Below, one piece after another: positions 24,015 through 43,458 of a stretch of 64,000 nucleotides of DNA (within the stretch, counting starts at the first letter, position 1; the number at the start of each line of letters is the position of its first letter). Under the pieces are notes generated by a model. It made no database searches, was not told the DNA's origin, and saw only the letters and a list, made by a program, of their open reading frames with translations. The stretch is from Williamsia limnetica (GTDB lineage: Bacteria; Actinomycetota; Actinomycetes; Mycobacteriales; Mycobacteriaceae). Where the stretch lies: NCBI RefSeq assembly GCF_003217475.1, contig NZ_QJSP01000006.1:111878-175877 (forward strand). Direction: 5' to 3'. Both the position numbers and the translations under genes were made by a program.

Positions 24015-24470
24015 TCACGGCGGCACCGGTGTCTGGGAGAGGGTCGAGAATTCGTCACCGAGGGCCCTGAGGCCGACGATCAATCCATCGCTCTCTCGGA
24101 TTGGCCCACCGCCGACCACCTGCCGGGATCGGGTGATCATATCGATCGCAGCGGTGAGCCTGTCCAACATGTTTCGCAGGCTGTCGTTGATCCGGCGATC
24201 ATCGACATCGAGTTCGGCGACACTGGTATAGGCGTCGATCACTTGCTCGGCGGCGTCGCCGAGTAGCACGGTCGTCTGATTGGTGGTCGCATCACCGGCG
24301 CTCCAGAGTTGCAAACCGTAGGCGGCAGATATGACCGCCGATCCGCCGTCACCAGCGGCTTGCGACAGCTGTCCGGGAACGCCGCCCTCGCCACGTGCGC
24401 AGCCCGCGATCGCCAGCAGCGTGACGAGACACCCGACAAGGACTTGTCCCCTCCATGTTGATGCCGACAT
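24015..24470 (-). CDS. Putative lipoprotein
   Basis: A 151-residue protein with an N-terminal signal ending in a lipobox (LLAIAGC, Cys at about residue 24), so it should be lipidated and held at the outer face of the plasma membrane. The mature part is helical and polar (AAEQVIDAYTSVAELDVDDR). I do not recognise a domain. It is 9 bp downstream of the UDP-glucose dehydrogenase gene and 13 bp upstream of the NRAMP-like gene, suggesting co-expression with either. Confidence 0.75.
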   Translation of the reverse strand: MSASTWRGQVLVGCLVTLLAIAGCARGEGGVPGQLSQAAGDGGSAVISAAYGLQLWSAGDATTNQTTVLLGDAAEQVIDAYTSVAELDVDDRRINDSLRNMLDRLTAAIDMITRSRQVVGGGPIRESDGLIVGLRALGDEFSTLSQTPVPP

Positions 24471-24479
24471 CGTCGCTGA

Positions 24480-25835
24480 TCACCAGCTCGACGTGGGGTG
24501 AAGAACGCCCGTAGGGGCAATCCCGTTACTGTACAACCGAATTCCACATCGACTCAGCTGGCCTGGGTCGAGAAACGTGCGTGTATCGATCACGACCGGG
24601 TCGTCGGCCACGTCGGCGATTGCCGCCCAATCAAGCTCGGTGAACTCTGGCCATTCGGTTGCGACGATCACTGCAGCAGCATCTTTGGCTGCCAGCAGTG
24701 GGTCGTCGACCAGCTCCATTTCGTCCGGCAGGCCGGCTACGGGCTGGGGGATGGCCGGATCATAGGCGGCGACGGTGGCACCCTCGTCGATGAGAGAGCG
24801 ACAGATATCCAGGGCGGGTGAGAAGCGTAGGTCGCCGGTACCCGCTTTGAATGCCAGACCCAACAACGCTATCCGCCGCCCATGCAGGTTCCCCTGAGCG
24901 GAACCGGTGACGCCGCGGCGCACTGTGTCGATCACCCGCCCGGTCGCACCGGTGTTCGCTGCGACGGCGGCATCGAGCACACCGAGCTCGATACCGGCCT
25001 CCCGGCCGCTGTGCAGCAGAGCGCGAGCGTCTTTCGGCAGGCATGAGCCACCCCAGCCCGGGCCCGGCGACAGAAATGCCTCACCGATTCGGTGATCGTG
25101 GGCCATCGCCGCAGTGACCTCTCGGATGTCGGCGCCCGTCCGTTCACACAAGGCCGCGAGTTCGTTGACAAAAGAGAGCTTGGTGGCGAGGAACGCGTTG
25201 CTGGCGTGCTTGGCCAACTCGGCGCTCTCGAGGCTGACCCGCTCGAGCGGGGCCTCGATTCCGCGGTACAGCGCCGCGATCCGGTCACCGGCGACGCGGT
25301 CGGAATCACCGATGACGATGCGATCGGGGTCGAGGAAGTCGGTGACGATGTGGCTCTCCCGCAGGAACTCCGGATTGCTGACAACTGCCATCGCCGACGG
25401 GCGTAGCAAACGTTCTGCCCGGCTCGCCGTCCCCACCGGGACGGTCGACTTGATGACGACGATGCAGATGTCCCCTCCGATCCGGATCAGTTTGCCGATC
25501 ACGTCGAATACGGCGCTCAGATCGGAGTGTCCGGCTCCGTCGACAGGGGTGGGGACGCAGATGAACACCGCTTCGCATCGCGAGAGCTCCGCGAAGTCGG
25601 TGCTCAGGGTGAGGCGTCCCGAATCGAGGCCCGACTGCAGAACCGAATCGAGACCGGGCTCTGTGAGATCGCTGTGGCCACTGCGCAACCGGTCGATACG
25701 CGTGGTATCCCGATCGACCGCGACGACCCGATGGCCCAGGTGACAGAATCCGGTTGCGGTGGCGAGTCCGACATATCCGGCCCCCACGACGCCGACCGCG
25801 CCGGCTGCGAGTATGCCATCGACGGACATGGTCAC
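24480..25835 (-). CDS. ugd: UDP-glucose 6-dehydrogenase
   Basis: A 451-residue enzyme that oxidises UDP-glucose to UDP-glucuronate with NAD. The N-terminal Rossmann motif GVVGAGYVGLATATGF, the SNPEFLRE segment and the catalytic-Cys loop GPGWGGSCLPKD are all present, as is the C-terminal LGLAFKAGTGDLRFSPAL. GTG at 25835 or ATG at 25829 may start it. It lies 18 bp downstream of a GT9 gene in the glycan operon and feeds the decarboxylase-like enzyme encoded at 33765-34736. Confidence 0.93.
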   Translation of the reverse strand: MTMSVDGILAAGAVGVVGAGYVGLATATGFCHLGHRVVAVDRDTTRIDRLRSGHSDLTEPGLDSVLQSGLDSGRLTLSTDFAELSRCEAVFICVPTPVDGAGHSDLSAVFDVIGKLIRIGGDICIVVIKSTVPVGTASRAERLLRPSAMAVVSNPEFLRESHIVTDFLDPDRIVIGDSDRVAGDRIAALYRGIEAPLERVSLESAELAKHASNAFLATKLSFVNELAALCERTGADIREVTAAMAHDHRIGEAFLSPGPGWGGSCLPKDARALLHSGREAGIELGVLDAAVAANTGATGRVIDTVRRGVTGSAQGNLHGRRIALLGLAFKAGTGDLRFSPALDICRSLIDEGATVAAYDPAIPQPVAGLPDEMELVDDPLLAAKDAAAVIVATEWPEFTELDWAAIADVADDPVVIDTRTFLDPGQLSRCGIRLYSNGIAPTGVLHPTSSW

Positions 25836-25853
25836 CGCCCCCGTTCGGCTACG

Positions 25854-26786
25854 TCACACATGAGCGATCGCCAGGTGCGAGTCGGCTGCCTCGATCACTT
25901 CGGCGACAGAAATCTCCAGCAGTCCCGGATCGGCGTGATCGGCGTGTGGGTCTCCGGTACGGCCGTGCCAGAGCACGCGATGCCGGCGGTCGCCGGCGGG
26001 TGGGCCCCAACGCTGCGGCGCCGTCGGACCGAAGAGCAACACCGAGGGAGTGTTCACGGCGGTGGCCAGATGCGCTACCCCGGTATCGCCGCAGATGACG
26101 AGTCGTGCGTTGGCCACCCGCTGCGCCAGTTGACCCAGCGACAAGTCGCCTGCGGTGATCGATGACATCGGCAGCCCCGCGTTCTCGGCGATGTTCTGCG
26201 CGAGCTCACGCTCGGCAGCGTTTCCGGTGATGGCCACCGGATGCCGGTGACGACGAAGGTGGGCTGCCAGCGTCGCAAACCTGTCGGCGGGCCACCGCCG
26301 TGCTGCTGATGCAGCCCCCGGGTGGATGATGATCTCACCTCCACCCTGATCGATGTCCGGGACGGACAGTGCGAGGTCCGTCGGATCTGTTGGGAAGCCG
26401 CCGTATTCGATCAGGCGGCACCAGCGGCGCACCTCGTGGAGGCTGCCGTCCCAGACCGGTCCGGGCAGGTGCGGGAATTTGTCGTGGCGATGTGTCAGAA
26501 CTCGCGCCGGACCTGTCGCGAGCACATCGACGATGCTTTCCGGGCCACTGCCGTGGAGGTTGACCGCAAGGTCGGGAGATCCCCCCTTCCAACGGATTCC
26601 GCCCAGCCCCGGCGTGTCGATGACGTCGTCGACGGTCCCCGTCCACACCGCGAGCTCGGCCATGGATCCCGGCGCCGCCAATACGATCCGGTCGTCGGGA
26701 CGCCCTGCCCGGAGCGCGCGCAGCGCGGGCACGGCGGTGAGCAGGTCGCCGAGACCGAGTGCACGCAAGACAAGTGTTACGGCCAC
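25854..26786 (-). CDS. GT9 family (heptosyltransferase-like) glycosyltransferase 1
   Basis: A GT-B fold enzyme of about 310 residues of family GT9, which in Gram-negatives transfers ADP-heptose to LPS core. It shows ALGLGDLLTAVPALRALR at the N-terminus and, in the C-terminal domain, IIIHPGAASAARRWPADRFA and GDTGVAHLATAVNTPSVLLFGPT, the donor-binding part. The GTG at 26786 has GGAGGGG upstream and lies 10 bp inside the end of the SDR gene. NDP-heptose genes lie just upstream, making heptose the likely donor sugar. Confidence 0.88.
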   Translation of the reverse strand: MAVTLVLRALGLGDLLTAVPALRALRAGRPDDRIVLAAPGSMAELAVWTGTVDDVIDTPGLGGIRWKGGSPDLAVNLHGSGPESIVDVLATGPARVLTHRHDKFPHLPGPVWDGSLHEVRRWCRLIEYGGFPTDPTDLALSVPDIDQGGGEIIIHPGAASAARRWPADRFATLAAHLRRHRHPVAITGNAAERELAQNIAENAGLPMSSITAGDLSLGQLAQRVANARLVICGDTGVAHLATAVNTPSVLLFGPTAPQRWGPPAGDRRHRVLWHGRTGDPHADHADPGLLEISVAEVIEAADSHLAIAHV

Positions 26787-27484
26787 GACCCCTCCGTCGA
26801 CGCACACACCACCATTTCGCGGACTTCGCATCCCGGTGGCTGAGACAGTGCGAACACCACGGTTCTGGCGACGTCGGCGGGCTGGTTCAGTTTCGCGTCC
26901 GGTGGCGGCTTGTACTGCTCGGCACGGTCGTCGAAGAACGCGGTGTGCATCCCACCTGGAATCAGTGTGGTCACTCCGACCTCACCCGCGAGCTCAGCCG
27001 CCAGGGCGCGGCTGAAGCCGATGACACCGAACTTCGACGCGCAGTAGGCGGTCGCATCACTGACGGCTTTGATGCCCAGGGTCGATGCGCAGGTGACGAC
27101 CTTGCCATGAGATCGCTTCAGGTAGGGCAGTGCAGCGCGAACCACGGCGACGGTTCCGAGCAGGTTGACGTGGATGACCCGCTCCCAGTCCTTGGCGTCG
27201 ATGTCTTCGAGGCGGCCGCAGGCATCGGTTCCGGCTGCGGTGAACACGCCGTCGAGGCCACCGGCCTGGGCGGCGAGCTCGCGGACGGCCGCGGCCGTGG
27301 CCTCGGTGTCGACGAGGTCTGCCTGCACGAACGCGACACCGTCGGCGGGACGATTGCGGTCGATGACCAGTGGGGTGCCACCGGCCCGGCGCACCGCATC
27401 AACCGTCGCCGCACCGAGTCCTGATGCGCCTCCGGTGATCAGGACATTGCCGACCGCGGTGGTCGGGGAGTTGTCGGCTGTCAT
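26777..27484 (-). CDS. Short-chain dehydrogenase/reductase
   Basis: A 235-residue classical SDR with TGGASGLGAATV at residues 16-27, a truncated Asn-Leu region (HVNLLGTVAVVRAALPYL) and YCASK as the catalytic Tyr/Lys. It is in the middle of the heptose operon, between hldE (37 bp gap) and a GT9 gene (10 bp overlap). A role in sugar modification is likely, but which NDP-sugar it reduces is unknown. GAGG lies before the ATG start. Confidence 0.9.
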   Translation of the reverse strand: MTADNSPTTAVGNVLITGGASGLGAATVDAVRRAGGTPLVIDRNRPADGVAFVQADLVDTEATAAAVRELAAQAGGLDGVFTAAGTDACGRLEDIDAKDWERVIHVNLLGTVAVVRAALPYLKRSHGKVVTCASTLGIKAVSDATAYCASKFGVIGFSRALAAELAGEVGVTTLIPGGMHTAFFDDRAEQYKPPPDAKLNQPADVARTVVFALSQPPGCEVREMVVCASTEGSWP

Positions 27485-27521
27485 CGTGTGAACCTCATTT
27501 CGCTTCTCGGATGTGCACGTG

Positions 27522-28907
27522 CTACGCGATGGATCGGGCGGCTGCCACGAGTCGTGTGGTGGAGTACCCCGGCAGGACCGGAGCGAAATGCACCTCGCCG
27601 CCATGCTGCCGAACGGTCGCGGCCTCGGGCAGGTCCTGCTCGGTGTAGTCGCTGCCCTTGACCCAGATCGCCGGGCGTAACCGATCGAGAATTGCTGTGG
27701 GAGTCGCCTCGTCGAAGATCGCCACCGCGTCGACGGACTCGAGTTCGAGGAGGATGTGAGCTCGGTCGGTGTGCGACACCACCGGCCGGCCCTCCCCTTT
27801 GGCGCGCCTGACCGAGTCGTCGGAGTTGAGGCAGACGACAAGGGCGTCACCGAGTTGGCGGGCATATCGCAGCAGGCTCACGTGTCCGGGATGCAGCAGG
27901 TCGAAGCAACCTCCGGTGGCCACGACACGTCCGCCCCGTCGACGGACCCGGGCCGCGAACTCGACAGCGTCACGATCGACCGAGGCAACGGTGCGCGGAG
28001 GGCGGGCTATGGACGCGACTCCGCCGGTGTGGACGTACTCGGTGGCCCGGCCGATGGCGAACCGGATGCAGTCGTCGATCGGCATGCCACGACGCAGGCC
28101 TTCGGCGGCCGCGGTTGCGAAACAGTCACCGGCGCCGCAGGTGTCGTGAGATCCGGGAGCGGCGATACGAGGTACGTCGACGGCCACCGTGGTGTCGGAA
28201 TCGGTGCTGTGGAGCTGTGCAGACCGCGACCCGCGAGTGATGACGACGTGTGCTGCCCGCCAGGCGCGCGCAAGGTGGGCAGCCCTCATCCCATCGTCGG
28301 TACTGTCCGATTCGGTTGTGAAGCGGGCGGCTTCGGCGTCGTTGGGCGTCACCAGCGTCACACCAGCGGTGGGCACCGAGCCGCGGGGGTGGGGGTCCCA
28401 CACGATCGGGACATCGGGGGCCACGCGTTCGAGGAGACGACGGATTTCGGGGTGCCCAGACACTCCGAGGCCATAGTCTGCCACCAAGATTGCTCCGGCC
28501 GAGTTGATGGCCTCGGCGACTCCGGAGGGCAGTTCTCGATGATCGGCGGTACCGTCGCCCGAGTCGAACCGGACGATGGACTGCCCGCCCGCTCGGACTC
28601 GCGTCTTCGCCACCGTGGTGCCGCGCAACGAAAGCGAGTGGATTGCCGCATAGGGCCACAGCATCTCTCGCAGTTCATGGCCCTGGGCATCATCGCCGAA
28701 CGCACTGATGAGGACGATCTCCTCGGCCAGATCGGCAGCGAGCACGGCAGCCAGGCCGGCGCCACCGGGCCGCCGCAGCTGGTCCCGCACATCCACCACC
28801 GGAACCGGTGCATCCGGGCACAGCCGCTCGGCGGATCCGTTGATGTCCACGTCGAGTAGGACGTCGCCGATCACGACCAGGGGACCCCGCGACGCCGCGG
28901 CCGTCAC
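27522..28907 (-). CDS. hldE: Bifunctional heptose-7-phosphate kinase / heptose-1-phosphate adenylyltransferase
   Basis: A 461-residue two-domain enzyme. The N-terminal PfkB kinase domain (VVIGDVLLDVDI, then GSHDTCGAGDCFATAAAEG) phosphorylates D-glycero-beta-D-manno-heptose 7-phosphate at C1. The C-terminal nucleotidyltransferase (GGCFDLLHPGHVSLLRYAR, with the HxGH motif) adds the nucleotide. Its GTG start overlaps the gmhA stop codon as GTGA; an in-frame start at 29021 would lie well inside gmhA. Length and domain order match E. coli HldE (477). Together with GmhA and GmhB it completes NDP-heptose synthesis. Confidence 0.93.
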   Translation of the reverse strand: MTAAASRGPLVVIGDVLLDVDINGSAERLCPDAPVPVVDVRDQLRRPGGAGLAAVLAADLAEEIVLISAFGDDAQGHELREMLWPYAAIHSLSLRGTTVAKTRVRAGGQSIVRFDSGDGTADHRELPSGVAEAINSAGAILVADYGLGVSGHPEIRRLLERVAPDVPIVWDPHPRGSVPTAGVTLVTPNDAEAARFTTESDSTDDGMRAAHLARAWRAAHVVITRGSRSAQLHSTDSDTTVAVDVPRIAAPGSHDTCGAGDCFATAAAEGLRRGMPIDDCIRFAIGRATEYVHTGGVASIARPPRTVASVDRDAVEFAARVRRRGGRVVATGGCFDLLHPGHVSLLRYARQLGDALVVCLNSDDSVRRAKGEGRPVVSHTDRAHILLELESVDAVAIFDEATPTAILDRLRPAIWVKGSDYTEQDLPEAATVRQHGGEVHFAPVLPGYSTTRLVAAARSIA

Positions 28908-29521
28908 GATCGCCCTGCCAACGTCGTATCGAGACTCATGCACAACGAGTGGATCAGTACGAGGTGCATCTCTTGGATTGTGGCTACCGTAGGCGCCTCG
29001 ACGGTGATCGCGTCGGAACACATGGCGGCAAGGGGATTCGGTCCGGGCCCCGTCAACGCCCAGGTCTCGATGTCCAACTCCTGGGCCGCTTTCACTGCGG
29101 CCAGGACGTTTCTGCTCGTCCCACTGGTGGACAGTGCGACCAGGACATCGCGTGGGCGACCGTAGGCACGAACCGGTCGTGCAAAGACCTCGTCTTCGCC
29201 ATAGTCGTTGCCGACCGCGGTGAATGCCGAGGTGTCGGCGTGCAGTGCGATCGCAGGCAATGGTCGCCGTTCGTCTTTGAACCGGCCGACCAGTTCACCG
29301 GTGAGGTGCTGGGCCTCGGCAGCGCTGCCTCCGTTACCGGCAGCAAGTAGTTGGCCGCCGGCGTCGAAGATGTCTGCCAGGCGTGCGCCCCACGAGGCGA
29401 TGGTGGTCATCGCCTCACCGTTGCGCTGCAACGCCTCCTGCAACGCGGAGAAGTGTTCGACGATTCTGCCGGCGTCGTGCCCGGGAGCGGTGTCGCCTGA
29501 TGACGAGCTGATGGCGGTCAT
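28904..29521 (-). CDS. gmhA: Sedoheptulose-7-phosphate isomerase
   Basis: A 205-residue SIS-domain enzyme making D-glycero-D-manno-heptose 7-phosphate from sedoheptulose 7-phosphate, the first step to NDP-heptose. It contains LLAAGNGGSAAEAQHLTGEL and STSGTSRNVLAAVKAA, as in GmhA proteins, and the length is normal. The ATG at 29521 overlaps the GT9 stop (ATGA), and its stop overlaps the hldE start (GTGA), so three genes are coupled. Confidence 0.93.
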   Translation of the reverse strand: MTAISSSSGDTAPGHDAGRIVEHFSALQEALQRNGEAMTTIASWGARLADIFDAGGQLLAAGNGGSAAEAQHLTGELVGRFKDERRPLPAIALHADTSAFTAVGNDYGEDEVFARPVRAYGRPRDVLVALSTSGTSRNVLAAVKAAQELDIETWALTGPGPNPLAAMCSDAITVEAPTVATIQEMHLVLIHSLCMSLDTTLAGRS

Positions 29522-30564
29522 GGTCGCCCTCCTCGTTGTGTCGGCCCGTGCGCGGCGCTGTGGCTCAGGTCTGCCACGGCCGACACGATGTCGGTGTCGG
29601 AGATGTTCTCGAGACAGGGGTGGCCAGGTATCGGGCACTCTCGAGCCCTCGTGTTCGCGCAACCCGCCTGTTGGTCGCCGAGAACGACCTTCGGTACTCG
29701 GTGCGGTGCCCAACGCACGGCGGGCACCACGGGTGCGAACAGAGAGACCACGGGGGTGCCGACCGCTGCCGCGAGGTGCGCCGGACCGGTGTTCGGGACC
29801 ACCACCACCCGAGCGCGGTCCAGCACCGCAGCCAGCGTCGCGAAATCCAGGGCGGCGCTCAGCGGCTGGGCGCAGTCGTCTGCGACGAAGCGGCCCAATT
29901 CGCGCTCCGACTCGCCGGCGGTGACCAGCACCCGGTGGCCGGCGTCGGCCAGAGCCCGCACCGCTCGCCGGCTGCGTTCTGCGGTCATTCGCCGAGCGGG
30001 AACCGCGGCACCCGGATGGAAGACGATGTAGTCGCCGTTGCCGACGAGTTCGGTGACGTCGGGCAGCGGACGACGGACCGCCAACTCCCCGTCGTCACCG
30101 GCCGGCGCCGGGAAATCGCAGGCCGCAGTGAGCGACAGGGCGCGCTCTGCTTCGGGGAAGTCGTCGGGGACCTGGTGTCGCACATCGAGCAGCGAACCCG
30201 GGTAATCGACGCTGATGGCACCGATGTGGCCGACACCGGCCATGCGGAGTACCAACGCGAGCGGCAACGGCGACTGGTGGAACGAGGTGAAGATCACGGC
30301 ATGCGTGAGGCGGAGGTCCTGGATCTGTTTGATCAGGTTGTCGATCCCGCCCGCGGTCAATTCCGGCGGCTCCAAATCCACCCACGGAGCGTTGTATTCG
30401 ATGACCTCGTCGACGCCGGGGAGCAACTCTGCTGCCGCCCGACCCCGCGGCCCGGCGAGAACGGTCACGGACTCGGCGGCGGCCGCCAGGGACCGGATCG
30501 CCGGACCCATCAACAGGACGTCCCCGGCGCTGTCGAGACGCGCGGCGAGTACCCGGCGACTCAT
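29518..30564 (-). CDS. GT9 family (heptosyltransferase-like) glycosyltransferase 2
   Basis: A 348-residue GT9 enzyme. The N-terminal RLDSAGDVLLMGPAIRSL and C-terminal IVFHPGAAVPARRMTAER and VVVPNTGPAHLAAAVGTPVVSLF segments are typical. It has an extra Cys-rich insertion near the end (AGCANTRARECPIPGHPC), as seen in some GT9 proteins. Both ends overlap neighbours by ATGA. Two distinct GT9 enzymes suggest two heptosyl additions, or one heptosyl and one related transfer. Confidence 0.9.
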   Translation of the reverse strand: MSRRVLAARLDSAGDVLLMGPAIRSLAAAAESVTVLAGPRGRAAAELLPGVDEVIEYNAPWVDLEPPELTAGGIDNLIKQIQDLRLTHAVIFTSFHQSPLPLALVLRMAGVGHIGAISVDYPGSLLDVRHQVPDDFPEAERALSLTAACDFPAPAGDDGELAVRRPLPDVTELVGNGDYIVFHPGAAVPARRMTAERSRRAVRALADAGHRVLVTAGESERELGRFVADDCAQPLSAALDFATLAAVLDRARVVVVPNTGPAHLAAAVGTPVVSLFAPVVPAVRWAPHRVPKVVLGDQQAGCANTRARECPIPGHPCLENISDTDIVSAVADLSHSAAHGPTQRGGRP

Positions 30565-32075
30565 CGCGCACCCACCGTCGCGAGGGCCACGGCAGAGCGC
30601 AGATCCGGTGCGACCAGCGCACGCTCACGCGCCCTGTCGATTTCGTCAGACCTGGTCTTGCCTGTCGGCACCAGAATTGCTGATGCACCGGCGCTCAAGG
30701 CTGCCTCGACGTCGGCGCCGATGTCACCGATCATCACGCAGTCGCGGGTGTCGATGCCGAGTTCGGCGGCGGCTGCCTTGATCATTCCCGGAGCTGGTTT
30801 GCGGCAGTCGCACCCCGCACTGTCGTCGTGGACGCAGGTCTGCCAGGTGTCGAAATCGCCGAGTATCGCGTGCACGCGTTCGTTCACCGCGGTGAGTTGG
30901 TCAGGCGTGATCAGCCCGCGGGCCACGCCGGATTGGTTGCTGACCACACCGATCCGGTAGCCAGCTGCGCGCAGTTCGTCGAGCAGTGCAGCAGCTCCAG
31001 GCATCGGTTCCACGAGATCGGGGTCTGCGAGATACGGCACGTCACGGATCAGTGTGTCATCGCGGTCGAACAGCAGGGCCAGGGGTTTGTTCGAGACGGG
31101 TGCGGTGTGCCAACCTGTCCGCACCCTCAGTTCACCGTGCGCGCGATGCCGGCACGCCAGCGGTGGGATGACGACGCTGGTCACGAGCATCCGGAGGACC
31201 TCGGCGCGATCGCGTGGACCGGGAGCGATACGACGCCAGGCGAACTCTGTGGTGAGTGCCGTCCACAGGGACGCGGCCACCACCGACGTGGTTCGCCGGC
31301 CCGTGACCGCTGCACCGAAAGCGGTGGCCGCAGCCAGGCAGGTGAGTGCGTATCTGGGTATGCGCCCGCGTGATTCACCGATCTTCGTGCGCCACCGTGC
31401 GCCGTGCTTGTACCGCATCAAGGCGTTGTCGGCGTTACCGATCTGCTCTCGCGCACTCGTCCAGAAGTCGCCGGCGGCGGCAGGATGAACGGTGCGACGG
31501 GCACCGTCGACTATCCGTCCACCCGCCTCGGTCAATCGAAGTGCGAGGTCGGCATCTTCACGAAATGCCCGCCGGAAGCGTTCATCGAAGCCGCCCGTGT
31601 CGACGAGAGCCTCTCTGCGGACAGCCATGTCGGCAGTGATCCACTGAGCGCTTGCAAGGGACGCGGTACCTCGTTCGGCGTCGGTGGGTTTCCGCCCCGC
31701 CGGTGGCGGGACGATGATCCGGCCTGTGCTGGCGACCACGTCGGAGGGTTGGCCCATGAGGTCGCTGACGAGGACGTCGCGCCACTGGTCGGTGGTGATC
31801 ACATCGTCATCGAGGAAAGCGATCCATTCGGCACCTGTGCTGTGCCAGCCGACGTTTCGCGCGGCAGCGGGGCCTCGCCCGCCGGATCGGACGACCCGGA
31901 CTCGCAGGTCCATCTCGGGCAACACCAGTGGTGGCAGCCCGTCCGCACCGGGCCTGTCATCGACAACCACCACCTCGGAGGGTGCTTGTCCGGACCCGGC
32001 CGCGAACTCCTGCAGCAAGCGCCCCAGATTGTCCCGGCCGATCGTCGGGATGACCACCGCATAGTCGATTGTCAT
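30561..32075 (-). CDS. Fusion: GT2 glycosyltransferase + heptose-1,7-bisphosphate phosphatase (GmhB)
   Basis: A 504-residue two-function protein. Residues about 1-310 form a GT2 domain (AVVIPTIGRDNLGRLL, then a FLDDDVIT metal site and FREDADLALRLTEAGG). Residues about 325-500 form a HAD phosphatase of the GmhB type (LLFDRDDTLIRDVP, VVSNQSGVARG, and the zinc loop CVH...CDCRKP), which removes the C7 phosphate before nucleotidyl transfer. The ATG at 32075 overlaps the carbamoyltransferase stop (ATGA), and its end overlaps the GT9 start. Having both activities in one chain is unusual and ties the GT2 to heptose supply. Confidence 0.93.
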   Translation of the reverse strand: MTIDYAVVIPTIGRDNLGRLLQEFAAGSGQAPSEVVVVDDRPGADGLPPLVLPEMDLRVRVVRSGGRGPAAARNVGWHSTGAEWIAFLDDDVITTDQWRDVLVSDLMGQPSDVVASTGRIIVPPPAGRKPTDAERGTASLASAQWITADMAVRREALVDTGGFDERFRRAFREDADLALRLTEAGGRIVDGARRTVHPAAAGDFWTSAREQIGNADNALMRYKHGARWRTKIGESRGRIPRYALTCLAAATAFGAAVTGRRTTSVVAASLWTALTTEFAWRRIAPGPRDRAEVLRMLVTSVVIPPLACRHRAHGELRVRTGWHTAPVSNKPLALLFDRDDTLIRDVPYLADPDLVEPMPGAAALLDELRAAGYRIGVVSNQSGVARGLITPDQLTAVNERVHAILGDFDTWQTCVHDDSAGCDCRKPAPGMIKAAAAELGIDTRDCVMIGDIGADVEAALSAGASAILVPTGKTRSDEIDRARERALVAPDLRSAVALATVGAR

Positions 32076-33697
32076 GGTCGGCGCACCACAAACGGCCCGA
32101 TGGCGAGGAGGTCGATCGGAGCGGATCCAAAGCACTCGAGCGCATCCCGCGGACTGTCGACCATCGGCCGACCAGCCGTGTTCAAACTGGTGTTCACCAC
32201 CACCGGCAGACCGGTGCGCTCTGCGAATCCACCGATCATCGCGGCGAGGAGGGGGTGATCGTCAGGGTCGACGGTCTGGATCCGGGCGGTGCCATCGACG
32301 TGGGTGACCACCGGAAGGCGTTCGCGCCATTCCTCGGCCACGTCGTGCACGAACAGCATGTACGGGCTCGGCAGCGGTCCGCGTCCGAAGATCTCCCCGG
32401 CTCGCTCGGCCAGCACCATCGGCGCCACGGGACGGAACTGTTCGCGTCCCTTGACCTCGTTGAGGCGTTCCAGGTTCTCCGGCTTGCCGGGATGGGCCAT
32501 CAGCGAACGCTGTCCGAGTGCACGCGGCCCGAACTCCGAACGACCCTGGAACCACGCGACGATCTGGTCATCTGCCAGCGCGGAGGCGACCGTCGCGGCG
32601 AGGTCGTCGGGCCTTTCGTAATGGACATGTGCCTGACGCAGTTGGGCTTCGATCTCTTGGTCGCTGAAACCACGGCCCAGTGCCGCAGAGGTCATCGGAA
32701 GGACCCGGTCACCGTTCTCGGTTGCGATCGCCGCGGCCGCGCCCAGCGCTGTGCCGGCATCACCGGCCGCCGGTTGCACCCAGATGTCGGTGAAAGGTCC
32801 CTCGGCATGCAGGCGAGTGGATGCGACGCAGTTCAGCGCGATACCGCCTGCCATGGTCAGCCTCTGCGCGCCGGTGCGGTCGTGAAGCCAGCGGCTGATG
32901 TGCAGCAGCACTTCTTCGAGACATTGTTGTACCGACGATGCAAGGTTGGCGTGGGCAGCGGTCATCTCGCCGTCGGCGGCACGTCTCGGTGCCAGCGCGT
33001 CCCAGTCGATCGGCTCCGTCCGGAACCCACCATCATCGGTGGCGTACACACGTTCTCGGAGTTGATCGATGAATTCAGGCCGACCATATGAGGCAAGGGC
33101 CATGACCTTGTACTCGTCGCTCGACCGGGCGAAGCCTACGTGCTCTGTCATGGCTTCGTAGAACAGGCCCAGCGAATGGGGCAACTGTTGTTCGGCCAGG
33201 ACGTCGAGCTTGCCGTCCCGGTATTCGCCGGCGAGCATCGATGTCTGCTCGCCCCGCCCGTCGAGGGTCAGCACCGCGCCATCCCCTGAAGGTGCCACAA
33301 GTCCACACGACGCAGCATGTGCGACATGGTGTTTGACGAATCTGACCTTTGCGGGGTCCAGACCCGGCAGGGCAGTGGCAAGAAAGTACGGCGCGCGGCG
33401 GGCAAAGGTGGTCCGCAATTCTTCCCACCGGGGGTCCAGTGCACCGAGCCCGTGGTCCACCTGATCGGGATCGTAGGAGTATGCAACGGCGTCCAGATCT
33501 TCTGGGCTCAGTCCCGCCTGCTGCAGACACCATGCGGCTGCCAACTCTGGTTGTTCCCACGCGGAGAAAGGAACCGGCTTCTTCGCGTGCTTTCGACGCG
33601 AGAAGCGCTCCTCTTCGGCTGCGGCAACAATCTTTCCGTCCACCAGTAATGCGGCAGAGGAATCATGGAATACCGCGTTGATGCCCAATACACGCAC
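32072..33697 (-). CDS. O-carbamoyltransferase (NodU/CmcH family)
   Basis: A 541-residue carbamoyltransferase. The N-terminal LGINAVFHDSSAALLVDGKI and KHHVAHAAS sequences contain the metal/ATP site, and the C-terminal half has the NodU/CmcH FGPRALGQRSLMAHP motif. The family transfers carbamoyl from carbamoyl phosphate to a sugar or antibiotic hydroxyl. The GTG at 33697 has GGAGG upstream, giving a better start than the codon at 33730. Within this operon it most likely carbamoylates the glycan, a rare decoration. Confidence 0.93.
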   Translation of the reverse strand: MRVLGINAVFHDSSAALLVDGKIVAAAEEERFSRRKHAKKPVPFSAWEQPELAAAWCLQQAGLSPEDLDAVAYSYDPDQVDHGLGALDPRWEELRTTFARRAPYFLATALPGLDPAKVRFVKHHVAHAASCGLVAPSGDGAVLTLDGRGEQTSMLAGEYRDGKLDVLAEQQLPHSLGLFYEAMTEHVGFARSSDEYKVMALASYGRPEFIDQLRERVYATDDGGFRTEPIDWDALAPRRAADGEMTAAHANLASSVQQCLEEVLLHISRWLHDRTGAQRLTMAGGIALNCVASTRLHAEGPFTDIWVQPAAGDAGTALGAAAAIATENGDRVLPMTSAALGRGFSDQEIEAQLRQAHVHYERPDDLAATVASALADDQIVAWFQGRSEFGPRALGQRSLMAHPGKPENLERLNEVKGREQFRPVAPMVLAERAGEIFGRGPLPSPYMLFVHDVAEEWRERLPVVTHVDGTARIQTVDPDDHPLLAAMIGGFAERTGLPVVVNTSLNTAGRPMVDSPRDALECFGSAPIDLLAIGPFVVRRP

Positions 33698-33764
33698 TCG
33701 GCCTCCCCGGCAGTGGTTGTGTCTGACCACTGCGAAGTACCCACGACCCGACGAGTTAAACCAC

Positions 33765-34736
33765 CTATAGGTGATTTGACTCGAGAGCTGAAACAGCCAG
33801 TCCTGACCTGAACCATTCGATCGTGGAGGCGAGACCTTCGTCGGCGCCGATCAGCGGCTCCCAACCCAGCTCGGATCGCGCCAAAGTAATATCTGGACAA
33901 CGTTTTTGAGGATCATCGATGACGGCGTCGTGGTACTCGATGGGGCTCGATGATCCCGTCGATTCCAGTATCTTTGTCGCTACGTTCCACACACTCAATT
34001 CGATCGGGTTTCCGATGTTGACCGGACCCTCGTGATGCGAGTGGGCGAGCGCCGACAATCCCCGTACGGTATCGGTCACGTGACAGATCGATCTCGTCTG
34101 TTGTCCGCTACCACTGACCGTCAATGGTCTGTTCGTCAAAGCCTGATGAATGAACGTGGGAATCATTCTGCCGTCGTCCGGTCGCATACGCGGACCATAG
34201 GTGTTGAAGATCCTGGCGATGGTGGTGTCGACTCCGTGATAGCGGCGATAAGCCACCGTGATCGCCTCGGAGAATCTTTTCGACTCGTCATAGACACTGC
34301 GTGGGCCGATGGAATTGACGTTTCCCCAGTAGGTCTCGCGCTGCGGATGTTCGGTGGGATCTCCGTACACCTCGCTGGTGGAGGCCAGCAGGAAGCGTGC
34401 GCCCTTGGCCAGCGCGACGTCGAGGGCGTGCCGGGTACCCTCGGATCCCACGCGGAGCGTCTCGATTCCCAATTCGGCGTAGTCGACCGGGGAAGCCGGG
34501 CACGCGAGGTGTGCGACGAGATCGAAGTCGCCGAGTTCGGGCCACGGCTCGACAGCGTCGTGATCGACCCATCGAAAATCGGGATGCTCCTCCAAGAGCT
34601 TTATGTTCGAACGCAATCCGGTGCACAGGTTGTCGAGGCAGACGACACTGACACCATCGCGGAGCAACTGCTCGCACAGATGTGATCCGACGAAGCCTGC
34701 TCCACCGCTGATCAGTGCGCGTTTGATCGTTCTCAT
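33765..34736 (-). CDS. UDP-glucuronate decarboxylase-like extended SDR
   Basis: A 323-residue NAD-dependent epimerase/dehydratase-type enzyme. GGAGFVGSHLCEQLL is the Rossmann motif, TSEVYGDP the catalytic Thr/Ser region, and YDESKR the Tyr-x3-Lys pair. ARIFNTYGPRMRPDDGRMIPTF fits the UXS/RmlB family. With ugd in the same operon, conversion of UDP-glucuronate to UDP-xylose is the best guess; epimerase or 4-keto activity is possible. The ATG at 34736 overlaps the stop of the GT4 gene (ATGA). A 12-bp palindrome (CACCTATAGGTG) at 33762-33773 overlaps its stop codon. Confidence 0.88.
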   Translation of the reverse strand: MRTIKRALISGGAGFVGSHLCEQLLRDGVSVVCLDNLCTGLRSNIKLLEEHPDFRWVDHDAVEPWPELGDFDLVAHLACPASPVDYAELGIETLRVGSEGTRHALDVALAKGARFLLASTSEVYGDPTEHPQRETYWGNVNSIGPRSVYDESKRFSEAITVAYRRYHGVDTTIARIFNTYGPRMRPDDGRMIPTFIHQALTNRPLTVSGSGQQTRSICHVTDTVRGLSALAHSHHEGPVNIGNPIELSVWNVATKILESTGSSSPIEYHDAVIDDPQKRCPDITLARSELGWEPLIGADEGLASTIEWFRSGLAVSALESNHL

Positions 34737-35941
34737 CGGGCATCCCTTGCTACCGCCGAGTCGGGTATGGCTTTCCGGTAGAGGCGAAGGGTCTCGGCCG
34801 CCACCCGGTCCCACGAGTATCGCTTACATGCGCGAGCGCGCGCGGCGTTACCGAATTCACGCCGTTCGTCTTCGGCTGCCAGCAACGCGGAGGCCGACGC
34901 GGCAAGTGACTGCGGGTCTCGAGCGGGGACCAGTCGGCCGGTGCGGCCGTCGACCACGGTGTCGAGCATCCCCCCGACCGCAGCTGCGATCACCGGTCGA
35001 CCGCAGGCCATCGCCTCGATCGGGACCATCCCGAAAGGCTCGTACCAGGGCACACACACGACCGCATCTGCTGAGCGGAACAAGGCAGGAATGTCTGCCC
35101 GAGAGACCGAGCCGGGCATGATGACCCGGTCACGGACACCGACTTCGGTGGCGACATCCAGAAGCCGGCGAGCCTCGGCATCATCTTCGAGTTCGCCATC
35201 CATCGGGCCGCCGGCGATGACCAGCTCGGTGTCCGGGATGTCGGCGAGGGCGCGGATCGCGATGTCGAATCCCTTGCGAGGCACCAACCGCCCCGCAGTG
35301 ACCAACCGGTGCCGGCGGTTGCGCTCGGCCACCGGGCCTGTCGGGGTGAAGGCATTGACATCGACTCCACACGGAACCACCACCGCCTGGGAACGGGGCA
35401 AGCCCATCCGGACGAGTTCGAAGACCTCGTCGCTGCACGTTGCGGCGACGTATGCCGCATCTCGGGCCAGTTGCTCTTCTGTTGCCAACCGAGACTGCGG
35501 ACTGGTGTCGGCGGCGCCTTGAAAACGCTTCTTCACCGATCCGAGAGCATGGAAGGTCTGGATGACGGGTAGGGACGTTCGCCGGGCCGCGATGTGTGCC
35601 GCGACGCCGGACATCCAGAAATGCGCGTGGACGATATCGGGACGCTCGTGTTCCCAATGATCTGCGATGAAGGCGCTGAACTCAGGCATGTGCTCGAGCA
35701 GTTGATCTTTCGGCAGATACGACGCCGGTCCCGCGGGCACATGCACGACCCGGTAGCCGGCGGGCGCGATGACCTCGGTCTCCAGCTGTGGATCATCCCG
35801 GCGGGTGTAGACGAGCACGTCGTGACCTGACCGGCACAGCGCTGCAGACAGTTCGGCGACATGCACGTTCTGGCCACCGGCGTCGACGCCGCGCAGGGTT
35901 GCCAAGGGGCTGGCGTGTTCGGAGATCATGGCGATCTTCAT
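34733..35941 (-). CDS. GT4 family glycosyltransferase
   Basis: A 402-residue GT-B enzyme. The N-terminal domain has GGQNVHVAELSAALCRSGH and the C-terminal domain has AGRLVPRKGFDIAIRAL and EPFGMVPIEAMACGRPV, the EX7E donor site of GT4 retaining transferases. Donor and acceptor are unknown. The ATG at 35941 lies 35 bp after the stop of the next upstream gene, and its stop overlaps the decarboxylase-like gene by ATGA. The arrangement fits sequential addition of sugars to the same glycan. Confidence 0.92.
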   Translation of the reverse strand: MKIAMISEHASPLATLRGVDAGGQNVHVAELSAALCRSGHDVLVYTRRDDPQLETEVIAPAGYRVVHVPAGPASYLPKDQLLEHMPEFSAFIADHWEHERPDIVHAHFWMSGVAAHIAARRTSLPVIQTFHALGSVKKRFQGAADTSPQSRLATEEQLARDAAYVAATCSDEVFELVRMGLPRSQAVVVPCGVDVNAFTPTGPVAERNRRHRLVTAGRLVPRKGFDIAIRALADIPDTELVIAGGPMDGELEDDAEARRLLDVATEVGVRDRVIMPGSVSRADIPALFRSADAVVCVPWYEPFGMVPIEAMACGRPVIAAAVGGMLDTVVDGRTGRLVPARDPQSLAASASALLAAEDERREFGNAARARACKRYSWDRVAAETLRLYRKAIPDSAVARDAR

Positions 35942-35976
35942 GTGAGACACCGCTTTCAGTAGTAGCCAGCACGACG

Positions 35977-36939
35977 TCACCTGGTGACATCGTGCAATAG
36001 ATCCTCCCAACGGGATACGAATGCGCCGAGCCCGTATTCGCGCAGGGCCCACTCGCGTGCCGCCTTGCCCGCGAGTTGTGCATCCGTGAGGTCGTGGGCG
36101 AAACGTGCGATCGCCTGCCCCAGTACTTCGGGATCCGCCGACACGATGCCGGCTGCTGAGGGCACCGCCCTCGGTGCTTCGGTCGAGGCAACCGCGACCA
36201 CGGGCATACCCAGGTGCATGGCCTCGATCAAAGAGAGGCCGAGCGACGTCCACCTCGCGGTGTGGACGAAGACACGTCGGCGAGCGACTTCCGCATGAAG
36301 GGTGTGGAGGTCGAGATCGCCGATGCCGACGACCTCCCCGCCGGTCTGTAGGCGGGGATCATCGAGGTCGGAGCAACCGATACCGAAGACGTCGATGGGT
36401 GCAGCGTTCGACAACACCGGGAGCAGATCCGTCCCGGTGATACGCCACCGCCGGATCGGTTCGTTGATCATCGTCGCCGCGCGTGACAGCTCGCCGGTGT
36501 ATTGCGGCCCGGGGTCGACGACGCCATGGGGCACAACCGTTGTCGGGCAACGTCCGTTGTCCCACATCAATCGGTTGAAATGCGTCACGTGCACGAGTGG
36601 GATGTCGGACCGTCCGGCCAGTACGTGTTCGGTGCGTGCGGCGTGTTCGTGGGGCGTGTTGTGCTCGACGTAGATGGCGGGGAGGTCTCTACCCGGTCGG
36701 CGACCGGTCCATCGCTCGGTCAGTTCGATTTCGTGGGGGCGCTGCAAGACCACCACATCGATGTCCGCCGTTGCCAGCTGGTCAGCCTGTACCTCGATTG
36801 CGGAGGCCGGCCACGGTCGGCCCATCCGCCCCCGTCCCCACTCGTCGAGGTCCGGGGTGACAGGGATGAGATAGGTGTGTCTTCCCTGAACGAAGGACGT
36901 TGACCACGATCCGTGCACATGCCACACCAGCACTCGCAA
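35977..36939 (-). CDS. GT-B glycosyltransferase (GT4-like)
   Basis: A protein of about 320 residues with an unusual N-terminus, RVLVWHVHGSWSTSFVQGRHT, seen in a family of actinobacterial glycosyltransferases. EHNTPHEHAARTEHVL and SLGLSLIEAMHLGMPVVAVAST form the C-terminal donor site. I chose the TTG at 36939 because family members begin at this point; an ATG at 37035 would add a poorly conserved 32-residue leader. It is first in the minus-strand operon and divergent from the pyruvyl-transferase-like gene. Confidence 0.78.
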   Translation of the reverse strand: MRVLVWHVHGSWSTSFVQGRHTYLIPVTPDLDEWGRGRMGRPWPASAIEVQADQLATADIDVVVLQRPHEIELTERWTGRRPGRDLPAIYVEHNTPHEHAARTEHVLAGRSDIPLVHVTHFNRLMWDNGRCPTTVVPHGVVDPGPQYTGELSRAATMINEPIRRWRITGTDLLPVLSNAAPIDVFGIGCSDLDDPRLQTGGEVVGIGDLDLHTLHAEVARRRVFVHTARWTSLGLSLIEAMHLGMPVVAVASTEAPRAVPSAAGIVSADPEVLGQAIARFAHDLTDAQLAGKAAREWALREYGLGAFVSRWEDLLHDVTR

Positions 36940-37062
36940 GGCTGGTGGAAGCAGTTGTGCACCCGACACTTCGACCACGCCGAATCTGTTCCCGTTGACG
37001 ACGCTTTTCAAACATGCGAACACGACGCTTAGCATGTTGCTTTTTCGGCTACCCGACAGCCC

Positions 37063-37941
37063 ATGAAGGTTCTCCTGGTCAGCTGGGCCACGTTCACCCA
37101 CGGTGAGGCGACTGCCGGGGATGTCCTCGCAGTCCGTCGTGTCGAGAACGAATTGACCGAGCAGGCAATAGATTTCGATACTGCGTGGAGTCCGGTGTTT
37201 CGGCCGGGTGAGTTGTGTCTGGACGACGTCGCACCAGAGGATTACACGCATCTGGTTTTCATCTGCGGACCCTGCCACGGGGAGCAGGTGGAGAGTTTGC
37301 ATCACCGTTTTCCGGACGCGGTGCGCATCGCGGTCGGGGTGTCGGTCATCGACGCCGACGACCCTGCTGTCACCGGGTTCGATCGGGTGATCGCTCGCGA
37401 CGGAGACGGGCGGGAGCGCCACGACCTCGCGACGTTTGCTCCTCTCGGAAGGGTGCCGGTCGTCGCGGTGATCCTGGCTCCGGGGCAGGGCGAATACGGT
37501 GACCGCAGGCGACACGAGCGGACGCATGCGCAGATCCTCGAGGCTTTGGCCGAACGCGACGTTGCTGTGCTGCCGGTCGACACCCGGCTCGACACCCGCG
37601 ACGCCACGGCGCCGTCCACTCCGGAACAGTTGTGTTCAGTGCTCAGCCGCGCCGACGCCGTGGTGAGCACCCGTCTGCACGGGTTGGTGCTCGGACTGCG
37701 GATGGGTGTGCCGGTACTGGCCATCGACCCCGTGGACGGCGGAGCAAAGGTGAGCGCACAGGCGCGCATCGCCCACTGGCCCGCGGCGCTGACTGCCGGA
37801 GAGTTCGAGTCCGATAGAGCTCGTTTCGATGAGCTGCTCACGTGGTGCCTGGGTCCGCGTGGCCGATGGGCGGCGCGGGCCACGACTGGCTACGAGAATG
37901 CAGATCCCACAACTGAACTGGTCAAGGAGTTATCGATATGA
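37063..37941 (+). CDS. Polysaccharide pyruvyl transferase-like protein
   Basis: A 292-residue protein. Its C-terminal half matches the polysaccharide pyruvyl transferase family (RADAVVSTRLHGLVLGLRMGVPVLAIDP, then KVSAQA). The N-terminal half is shorter and more divergent than usual. Such enzymes attach a pyruvate ketal from PEP to a sugar. It starts at an ATG, diverges from the 12 kb glycan operon, and overlaps the tandem GT2 gene by ATGA. Confidence 0.82.
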   Translation: MKVLLVSWATFTHGEATAGDVLAVRRVENELTEQAIDFDTAWSPVFRPGELCLDDVAPEDYTHLVFICGPCHGEQVESLHHRFPDAVRIAVGVSVIDADDPAVTGFDRVIARDGDGRERHDLATFAPLGRVPVVAVILAPGQGEYGDRRRHERTHAQILEALAERDVAVLPVDTRLDTRDATAPSTPEQLCSVLSRADAVVSTRLHGLVLGLRMGVPVLAIDPVDGGAKVSAQARIAHWPAALTAGEFESDRARFDELLTWCLGPRGRWAARATTGYENADPTTELVKELSI

Positions 37942-39749
37942 CGAGCTCGGATATCAGCGTGGTGGTACTGAGCCACGACCGCGCTGCGGAACTGACCACC
38001 ACACTCCGGCATCTGTTGCACCTGCCAGAGAGGCCCCCGATCATCGTCGTCGACAACAACTCGTCTTTCGACGTCAGGCAGCTCGTATCGGAGCTCGACG
38101 GCGAGGAGAATCGCATCGAGGTCGTGTGTCTGGAGTCCAACCAAGGCGCCGCCGCTCGCACGGTAGGTGTACGGCACGCGGCGACCAGGTACGTCGCTTT
38201 CTCGGATGATGATTCGTGGTGGGAACCGGGGGCATTGGCGCGCGCAGTAGAGCACCTGGACCGGAGTCCGACTCTCGGAGCTCTGGTGGCGCGAACACGC
38301 ATCGACGACAGCGGCCGGGAGGACCCGATCACCGCGGATCTGGAGGGGAGTCCGCTCGGCTGGCGCCCAGGCTTGCCAGGGCCGTCGGTGCTTGGCTTTT
38401 TGGCCTGCTCGGCCGTGGTCCGCGTCGGGGCCTATCTGGATGCCGGGGGCTTCAATCCTCTTCTTTGGTTCGGCGCCGAAGAGCGCTTACTGTCAATGGA
38501 TCTCGCGGCCAAAGGGTGGGATGTCTGCTACGTGGCGGACGTAGTCGCCGAGCACCGGCCATCGTCGTTACGCCCGCCGGGTGCTTGGCGTCGCGCGCTG
38601 GAGGCCCGCAACAACCTGTTGATCACCTGGATGCGGCGACCGCTTCGCAGGTGCCTCACGGAGACAGTCGCGGTGGCGACGGCTGCCAGGTCCGATCAGG
38701 ACGCGCGTCGGGCTGTGGCGGGAGCCCTGCGGCGTATCCCTCGCGTGTTGGCGGCTCGAGAGGTGCTACCGCATCATGTCGATCGCAAGGTGGGTTTACT
38801 CGAGCGGCACGATCAGGGTGTTGGTGGTGCGGTGGCGGCGCCTGCCGAGCGGTCGGGGCCGCCGGCGACGGTCGTGGTGATCACCCACAACAGGATCGAT
38901 GAACTGCGAGCCACTCTCAAGCACATGACGGCTCTACCCGATGCGATGCCGATCATTCTCGTGGACAACGCCTCTGAAGACGGCAGCGCGGACATGGTCG
39001 AGTCCGAGTTCCCGGGCGTGCAGCTGCTGCGCAGCAAAGTGAACCTCGGCGCAGCCGCGCGAAATCTCGCGGTGGCCGAGGCCAAGACGCCCTACGTCGC
39101 CTTCTGCGACGACGACACCACCTGGCAGCCCGGCTCGTTGACCCGCGCAGCCGGGGTGCTCGATCGTTTTCCGGGGGTCGGGTCGGTGACCGGCAAGTGC
39201 CTGGTGGAGCCCACACTGGTCGAAGATCCACTGACACCGGAACTCCGGAACTCTCCGATCGAGGGCCCTGACTGGCTACCGGGGCCGCCGCTGCTGGGCA
39301 TCATGGCGGGTCTGACGATGATCCGCGTGTCGGTGTTCGACGAGGTCGGTGGATTCTGTGAGCGGATGTGGTTGGGCGGTGAAGAAGAGCTGCTCGCTCT
39401 CGACGTGGCAGCGAATGGTTGGTGGATGGTGTGGATCGAGGACGTCGTGATCCACCACGCGCCCTCCCGGGCGCGCGATTCCAAGCGCAGACGTCAACTG
39501 GGTATCCGGAACACCCTGTGGACATTGTGGCTGCGCAGACCGATCCGTAGTGCGTTGCGTCGCAGTGCGATTGTGCTCGGATCGGCGCCACTCGATCGCG
39601 CCACCCTCTCCGCGGTTGGGGAGGCCGTCGCTGCTGCCCCGTGGGTCGTCGGCAACCGCCGCGTAGTCGATCGCACCATCGAGAAGGGGCTGCGTTCGTT
39701 GGAAGCCGACCAGCGCAACTCGAAGGCGCGGAGGTACGTCGACGGCTGA
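37938..39749 (+). CDS. Tandem GT2 protein with two glycosyltransferase domains
   Basis: A 603-residue protein made of two homologous GT2 domains, roughly residues 1-290 and 310-600. Each has its own nucleotide-sugar site (SDDDSWWEPG in the first, CDDDTTWQPG in the second), matching NQGAAART/NLGAAARN upstream segments, an acceptor loop (FGAEERLLSMDLA versus GGEEELLALDVA) and a similar closing tail. The parallel layout shows internal duplication. It could add two sugars in turn or polymerise a disaccharide. Its ATG overlaps the previous stop codon. Confidence 0.92.
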   Translation: MTSSDISVVVLSHDRAAELTTTLRHLLHLPERPPIIVVDNNSSFDVRQLVSELDGEENRIEVVCLESNQGAAARTVGVRHAATRYVAFSDDDSWWEPGALARAVEHLDRSPTLGALVARTRIDDSGREDPITADLEGSPLGWRPGLPGPSVLGFLACSAVVRVGAYLDAGGFNPLLWFGAEERLLSMDLAAKGWDVCYVADVVAEHRPSSLRPPGAWRRALEARNNLLITWMRRPLRRCLTETVAVATAARSDQDARRAVAGALRRIPRVLAAREVLPHHVDRKVGLLERHDQGVGGAVAAPAERSGPPATVVVITHNRIDELRATLKHMTALPDAMPIILVDNASEDGSADMVESEFPGVQLLRSKVNLGAAARNLAVAEAKTPYVAFCDDDTTWQPGSLTRAAGVLDRFPGVGSVTGKCLVEPTLVEDPLTPELRNSPIEGPDWLPGPPLLGIMAGLTMIRVSVFDEVGGFCERMWLGGEEELLALDVAANGWWMVWIEDVVIHHAPSRARDSKRRRQLGIRNTLWTLWLRRPIRSALRRSAIVLGSAPLDRATLSAVGEAVAAAPWVVGNRRVVDRTIEKGLRSLEADQRNSKARRYVDG

Positions 39750-39884
39750 GGCTGCCGACTCTTGCGCCGACCCGCGTCACGTTCTATTCTGTCCTTGCGG
39801 TTCATACCCAGCCGCATCGGAACGTTCCTGGTCCTTCCCAGCGTATCCGGGCCTGCTGCGGTCATCCGTCCCATTGATTGGACG

Positions 39885-39924
39885 CCAGATTCCGCTCTCA
39901 TGTCCCAGATTCCGCTCTCATGTC
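39885..39924. repeat. 20-bp direct tandem duplication
   Basis: CCAGATTCCGCTCTCATGTC occurs twice in a row (39885-39904 and 39905-39924) with no difference. It lies in noncoding sequence between the tandem GT2 gene and a small membrane protein gene, and looks recent. Confidence 0.92.
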
Positions 39925-40033
39925 ACGGAGTCGGGTTGCCAGAACCGTTCTCGGCCATGGATGGCACCTGCAAATACCCGGGTTCGTGCCTGGCCCTCAT
40001 CACTTGCGCTGTCAACGTGTTCTGGGGTGGATC

Positions 40034-40321: not shown

Positions 40322-40383
40322 AGCGAAATTGGCTGCAGCGCAACCGGACCGCGGCTCGATGATCGATCGGACAGCGGTGAGAT

Positions 40384-40596: not shown

Positions 40597-40613
40597 CCGG
40601 GCCTACCGGGTGT

Positions 40614-40625
40614 GGGGGGGGGGGG
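40614..40625. repeat. Poly-G tract of 12
   Basis: Twelve consecutive G bases lie between the small conserved gene and furA. Runs this long are slippage-prone in replication and in sequencing, and are a possible assembly-error site. The tract is 17 bp past a stop codon, so it does not affect a frame here. Confidence 0.9.
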
Positions 40626-40695
40626 CTTTCGGACGGATTCGGCGCCTGCACCCGTGACTGATCGGCACGACTGTTCAGCGGTTCGTCTGGATTTG

Positions 40696-40756: not shown

Positions 40757-43458
<2,702 letters not shown>

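Follow-up and report, generated by a model that had tools for sequence, protein, structure and literature searches.

Introduction

The closest described counterpart of the gene cluster treated here is the cwg operon of Streptomyces coelicolor, a vancomycin-induced target of sigma-E according to PMC6767563. Within this operon, SCO6186 is a phosphoheptose isomerase and SCO6187 a bifunctional synthase/transferase (PMC5839063), while an excerpt of PMC5882110 lists SCO6183 as a glycosyltransferase (GT1) and putative heptosyl transferase. No identification of the cwg product was found in the literature searched. The cluster under study is encoded at positions 24480-39749 of a 64,000-nucleotide stretch of the Williamsia limnetica genome (contig NZ_QJSP01000006.1), hereafter termed the window, to which all coordinates refer. 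We propose, with a probability of roughly 0.6, that it is a cwg-type operon, gained or retained as a genomic island, which makes ADP-heptose and a carbamoylated, heptose- and xylose-containing glycoconjugate of the cell envelope. Its main novelty is a conserved short-chain dehydrogenase/reductase (SDR), which is missing from the cwg locus.

Several other systems resemble parts of this repertoire. With the Gram-negative ADP-heptose pathway and the transferases WaaC and WaaF, the window has in common GmhA, a bifunctional HldE, a GmhB-type domain and the GT9 fold, but it differs in that no HldD exceeds the cut-off, GmhB is fused to a GT2 enzyme and the scores stay below strict equivalog cut-offs. 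Hygromycin B is an actinomycete natural product containing heptose. The same is stated for septacidin in excerpts of PMC11573728, and in R. ruber a gmhD-dependent capsule contains heptose in the absence of lipopolysaccharide (LPS), gmhD encoding a guanosyltransferase of a GDP-heptose route (PMC12298843, in part). These three systems share with the window the occurrence, here predicted, of heptose in LPS-free organisms, but they represent either a GDP-linked route or natural products.

Relationship to the Streptomyces cwg operon

Allowing at most 2 mismatches, a search for the published cwg promoter through 392 genomes of one genus, probably Streptomyces, yielded matches in 6 of them and none for the reversed control. 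Five of the six promoter loci were extended (L174-L178), and four of these five encode relatives of all genes of the window locus other than ugd and the SDR gene, in the order decarboxylase, carbamoyltransferase, GT2, HAD, GT9B, GT4b, GT4a, gmhA, hldE, GT9A and two GT2, with a pyruvyltransferase-like gene on the opposite strand. An exact promoter copy is located in genome G817 (locus L174), 147 bases ahead of the decarboxylase gene, as published, and is followed by this gene set: 12 coding units match 10 window genes, two of which are fusions, in addition to the pyruvyltransferase-like gene, at 45-67% identity. From the exact promoter, the 147-base distance and the gene names we infer that L174 corresponds to SCO6179-6190 and that its genome is that of S. 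coelicolor or close kin. The published names of SCO6183, SCO6186, SCO6187 and SCO6188 fit by position the fifth, eighth, ninth and tenth genes (GT9B, gmhA, hldE and GT9A), and the printed name "transferase" is compatible with the second, third and seventh genes of L174, whereas the name printed for the fourth gene does not match (see below).

Because of the promoter, its 147-base spacing and the shared gene set, the window locus is classed on sequence grounds as a cwg-type locus and not as a new kind. The earlier note had described a complete heptose pathway with two GT9 enzymes that appeared undescribed for this group; the four-step set and both GT9 genes indeed lie in one conserved actinomycete operon, but the cwg operon has the same gene set, so that "undescribed" does not hold. 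No description in Mycobacteriales was found in partial listings of the open-access literature.

Compared with cwg, the window additionally contains ugd and the SDR gene, the GT2-GmhB and GT2-GT2 pairs are fused, the gene order is different and the GT2 pair lies on the other strand. No relative of ugd (threshold E<=1e-8) or of the SDR was detected in L174-L178, and no hidden SDR was seen when the gap between hldE and GT9A of L174 was inspected. In the fifth extended locus, L175 (genome G709), the promoter is kept with one mismatch, while the 19 kb behind it hold only GT2 and GT4a relatives, which is the picture of a reduced cwg locus.

Gene content and layout of the window locus

The locus comprises 11 close-packed genes on the minus strand (24480-36933), of which 6 out of 10 junctions overlap by a few bases with the chosen starts, and a divergent pair on the plus strand (37063-39749). 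The first gene of the minus-strand operon encodes the glycosyltransferase GT4b (35977-36933; Pfam Glycos_transf_1), followed by GT4a (34733-35941), which is of the MshA/Tll1590 kind (PDB 3c48 and 6kih, respectively). Next are a UDP-glucuronate decarboxylase, i.e. UDP-xylose synthase (33765-34736; PDB 4gll/2b69 with E 5e-93, next class E 1e-30), and an O-carbamoyltransferase of the TobZ/NodU family with both the N- and the C-terminal domain (32072-33697; PF02543 and PF16861; PDB 7xb6, TobZ). The GT2-GmhB fusion, combining a glycosyltransferase with a heptose bisphosphate phosphatase, is encoded at 30561-32075 and the heptosyltransferase-like GT9B at 29518-30564 (PF01075). GmhA, the sedoheptulose-7-phosphate isomerase (28904-29521), matches SIS_2 (E 9e-23) and the phosphoheptose isomerase PDB 5i01 (E 1e-44); HldE (27522-28907) joins a PfkB kinase to a CTP_transf_like nucleotidyltransferase. 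The operon ends with the classical SDR of 235 residues (26777-27484), the heptosyltransferase-like GT9A (25854-26786; PF01075, E 7e-28) and a Ugd-like nucleotide-sugar (UDP-glucose) dehydrogenase (24480-25829; TIGR03026, 395 bits against a cut-off of 189.8). On the plus strand, a polysaccharide pyruvyltransferase-like gene (37063-37941), whose match to PF04230 is short and C-terminal (E 2e-10) and which has no NCBIfam match, precedes a tandem GT2-GT2 glycosyltransferase gene (37938-39749; PF00535 in two stretches).

Gene starts were chosen by the analyst from the sequence, and several likely ones lie inside the listed open reading frames (ORFs): ATG at 29521 for GmhA, preceded by AGGAGGG, GTG at 28907 for HldE, 33697 for the carbamoyltransferase, ATG at 34736 for the decarboxylase, ATG at 35941 for GT4a and about 36933 for GT4b. 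At E<=0.001, the whole genome yields one GmhA, one HldE and two GT9 matches, all within the locus, and no Rfam match was obtained in the 20-44 kb section of the window. The gene families named in the earlier note were recovered by family and structure matches with intact catalytic motifs, the GmhB domain being present as the C-terminal half of the fusion protein. The note listed neither the SDR nor the pyruvyltransferase-like gene, and did not mention that the GT2 gene is a tandem.

Distribution among actinomycetes

A scan for the SDR across one genome per species from 84,980 bacterial and archaeal species, at a threshold that possibly includes unrelated SDRs (E<=1e-3), returned at least 522 encoding stretches in named genomes. 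The best 80 of these are 67-81% identical and all actinobacterial, and include Mycobacterium, Nocardia, Amycolatopsis, Saccharopolyspora, Microbispora, Streptosporangium, Nocardiopsis and Actinomadura. By matches to the SDR (80), HldE (20) or plasmid-borne SDRs (2), 102 loci were chosen, of which the 84 of at least 19 kb were kept and 18 shorter ones dropped. In this sample of 84 loci, SDR and HldE presence is biased by the selection, and two or more genomes (N. carnea and N. flavorosea) are counted twice. The genes gmhA, hldE, the SDR gene and GT9A are consecutive in 71 of the loci; 67 contain an eight-gene set, 60 a ten-gene set and 53 ugd. The locus is not a chance assembly, since many genera show the same genes in the same order. 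Relatives of the gene set, which the earlier note had proposed to search for in other Mycobacteriales, are common across Actinomycetota.

The carbamoyltransferase gives counts that are free of this selection. It was detected in 128 of 298 genomes of the order (E<=1e-100; three of these have only a relative of 44-47% identity), in 22 of 201 genomes of the family and in one of nine of the genus. All 22 positive family genomes also carry HldE domain II (E<=1.1e-50), which occurs in 25 of the 201, the remaining three belonging to one genus (Nocardia by inference); the hypergeometric value for this co-occurrence is tiny but ignores kinship. Across Actinomycetota, HldE domain II (TIGR02199) exceeds the cut-off in 46 of 396 genomes.

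In some Nocardia loci (L083, L091, L096 and L115) the SDR, GT4 and GT9B genes are rearranged around HldE, and L096 contains parts of two sets. Plasmid records yielded two SDR relatives, from Nonomuraea and from an Arthrobacter megaplasmid, in stretches without gene annotation. The Arthrobacter sp. StoSoilB13 plasmid of 1.0 Mb (L121) carries relatives of part of the cassette, with no detectable carbamoyltransferase or decarboxylase within the 36.7 kb examined. The Nonomuraea gerenzanensis record (L120, NZ_LT559118.1) is filed as a plasmid, though its size of 11.85 Mb suggests a chromosome.

Conservation of the predicted heptose enzymes

Motif residues were counted in aligned relatives, fragments included, with identity thresholds set by script. 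Invariant where aligned are GAGD (105/105) and HxGH (108/108) of HldE, Q183, H186 and H191 of GmhA (109/109), the DxD (97/97) and the zinc-type C/H/C/C residues (98/98) of the GT2-GmhB fusion, YxxxK of the SDR (107/107) and the N-terminal Asp of the GT9 enzymes (D14 of GT9A, 95/95), all of which we take to be catalytic. The set of isomerase, kinase, phosphatase and nucleotidyltransferase expected for ADP-heptose synthesis thus appears complete in sequence, each with its putative catalytic residues kept. Both GT9 enzymes pass the Pfam GT9 cut-off, and GT9A in addition features the N-terminal catalytic Asp and the DTG donor motif (D234, 105/105). The predicted model of GT9B (predicted local distance difference test score 91.8) finds its best fold matches in WaaF (1psw), 3tov and WaaC. 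The SDR is 67-81% identical to 23 aligned relatives; a search with its fold brought up generic SDRs, with clavulanic acid dehydrogenase (2jah), the nearest solved structure, at the top, and gave no clue to its substrate.

HldD, the 6-epimerase, did not reach the cut-off in the genome (best match 112 versus 274.6 bits), and it is unnecessary for D,D-heptose. With regard to the nucleotide, an Arg at the fifth position of the STT motif marks nucleotidyltransferases that are promiscuous for nucleoside triphosphates (parts of PMC11573728 and PMC11461863), although promiscuity is possible without this Arg (PMC11461863, in part). The window HldE has a Tyr at this position; of 108 relatives, 76 share the Tyr, 25 have Arg, four His and three Gln. 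ADP-heptose is therefore the simplest prediction.

Proposed pathway and product

In the proposed pathway, GmhA would isomerise sedoheptulose 7-phosphate, the kinase domain of HldE would yield heptose 1,7-bisphosphate, the GmhB half of the GT2 fusion would remove the 7-phosphate and the transferase domain of HldE would form ADP-heptose, from which GT9A, and probably also GT9B, would transfer heptose. Ugd and the decarboxylase would supply UDP-glucuronate and UDP-xylose for the GT4 and GT2 enzymes, and the pyruvyltransferase-like protein may add a ketal. In a reaction that has no equivalent in cwg, the SDR probably acts on heptose or its nucleotide, by oxidation, reduction or epimerisation. The carbamoyltransferase is expected to decorate a hydroxyl group, possibly on heptose. 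Pseudomonas LPS carries carbamoylated heptose, which by analogy makes heptose a plausible carbamoylation site. Finally, the oligosaccharide, probably assembled on a lipid carrier, would reach the cell envelope via an exporter encoded elsewhere, a destination suggested by the regulation of cwg by sigma-E and vancomycin.

Several observations weigh against this reading. Concerning the sugar, HldE, GmhA and both GT9 enzymes fall below the strict NCBIfam equivalog cut-offs (TIGR02199, 175 versus 181.5 bits; TIGR02198, 126 versus 345; TIGR00441, 159 versus 209), so that heptose as substrate is a prediction from family membership. Moreover, the donor motif of GT9B has Asn in place of Asp (NTG, N258 in 101/101 relatives); in phmmer alignments both this NTG and the DTG of GT9A fall on the DTG of E. 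coli WaaC, and GT9B may hence bind its donor differently. The sub-threshold scores and N258 would also suit enzymes that act on another sugar phosphate, such as a hexose, without any heptose being made. We consider this unlikely in view of the joint retention of isomerase, kinase/nucleotidyltransferase and 7-phosphatase-type domains with their catalytic residues, and of the gmhA-hldE-SDR-GT9A run in 71 of the 84 loci, picked though these were by SDR or HldE. In addition, the fourth cwg gene is named a "putative dehydratase" in a table of PMC5839063, as opposed to the GmhB-type HAD seen here.

Further points of this kind concern regulation and destination. The divergent gap of the window lacks a sigma-E-like motif, and such a motif lies upstream of GT4b in 2 of 48 relatives' loci compared with 11% of random stretches, in a test on relatives outside Streptomyces that takes GT4b as the first gene, which is untrue for some loci. 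Sigma-E control outside Streptomyces was rejected, since no motif enrichment was present upstream of GT4b. None of the 13 products has a convincing membrane segment, the hydropathy peaks of 1.66-1.84 being judged buried segments of soluble folds. Among the locus ORFs scanned there is no polymerase, flippase, priming transferase or export gene, and rough gene calls revealed no exporter or polymerase as a recurrent neighbour of the cassette. The surface glycan suggested by the earlier note is a plausible product.

MshA and Tll1590 use soluble acceptors. The proximity of GT4a to these two among solved structures, together with the lack of predicted transmembrane proteins, would fit a small soluble glycoside, either a secreted natural product or a cytosolic oligosaccharide, in place of an envelope glycan. 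The bleomycin genes offer a model for such a product, likened to the cassette by gene names alone; BlmC and BlmE presumably resemble HldE and GT9 enzymes. According to an excerpt of PMC7017467, blmC-blmG likewise comprise a sugar synthase, a carbamoyltransferase, a sugar transferase and an epimerase, BlmF also being called a hydroxylase, and part of PMC8787198 describes L-gulose and 3-O-carbamoyl-mannose on the bleomycin peptide. A soluble product is a serious alternative but the less likely one: cwg is an envelope-stress target, and the spread over many families better suits an envelope role. In a survey of rough gene calls within about 10 kb, which was judged by eye and whose caller missed real genes, some window genes included, no scaffold gene for a natural product stood out as a recurrent neighbour; a natural-product cluster is accordingly disfavoured.

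The envelope glycoconjugate reading turns gene content into a direct, falsifiable chemical prediction, namely carbamate, heptose, xylose and perhaps a pyruvate ketal, and implies heptose in bacteria that lack LPS. An orphan operon that Streptomyces induces under stress is thereby connected with a cassette carried by a large fraction of actinomycetes, among them some non-tuberculous mycobacteria and Nocardia. Since ADP-heptose acts as an agonist of ALPK1 (PMC11573728, in part), the prediction bears on innate sensing of LPS-free bacteria. More tentatively, we suggest that Mycobacteriales and Streptosporangiales might have added the dedicated short SDR, and at many loci also Ugd, to the cwg-type pathway to produce a modified heptose unknown from LPS. 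The result would be a carbamoylated-heptose envelope glycoconjugate in LPS-free bacteria, and acid-fast bacteria would contain a pool of ADP-heptose open to sensing by the host receptor ALPK1.

Genomic island and its origin

By blastn against the corresponding locus (L148) of a sister genome (G076), the window stretch 24393-40698, between an Nramp transporter gene and furA-katG, is missing from the sister: the flanks align at 81-87% up to 24392 and again from 40699, and 1.24 kb of other sequence replaces 16.3 kb. In two other members of the genus the match stops at 20538 and resumes at 40699, and a fourth matches only from 40696. No tRNA gene is present in the window, the island ends show no clear repeat but only weak, chance-like ones, and Pfam scans of the island ORFs, which covered the island up to 39749 and not 39750-40698, revealed no integrase. 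The island possibly arose by homologous-recombination gain or by loss in the sisters.

A tree of the carbamoyltransferase (93 actinobacterial rows, quick method) broadly follows taxonomy and places the window protein beside that of Nocardia kruczakiae (77% identity; Shimodaira-Hasegawa-like approximate likelihood ratio test value 90, not starred), which points to another actinomycete as the probable donor, if there was one. The LPS-like enzyme names, the lack of the carbamoyltransferase in eight of nine genus members and the sister genome without the stretch might also be explained by recent transfer of a Gram-negative LPS-core cluster into an actinobacterium. Such an origin is, however, highly improbable given this tree of actinobacterial rows and the exclusively actinobacterial nature of the best 80 of at least 522 SDR loci, both of which disfavour it; the heptose enzymes were searched within Actinomycetota and control genomes.

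The replacing sequence of about 1.2 kb in the sister genome lies at 11678-12913 of L148. In the window, furA (named by eye) and katG (40757-43458) directly adjoin the island. In other genera, inspection by eye found catalase, sigma/anti-sigma factor or topoisomerase IB genes near the cassette, which may be chance. Two GGDEF-EAL proteins, which bear PAS domains in one case and GAF domains in the other, are encoded on either side of the island at 11548-14046 and 48655-50961. Outside the island, a GT4 gene at 50525-52198 is nearest to N-acetylglucosaminyl phosphatidylglycerol synthase (NCBIfam, 184 bits versus a cut-off of 480).

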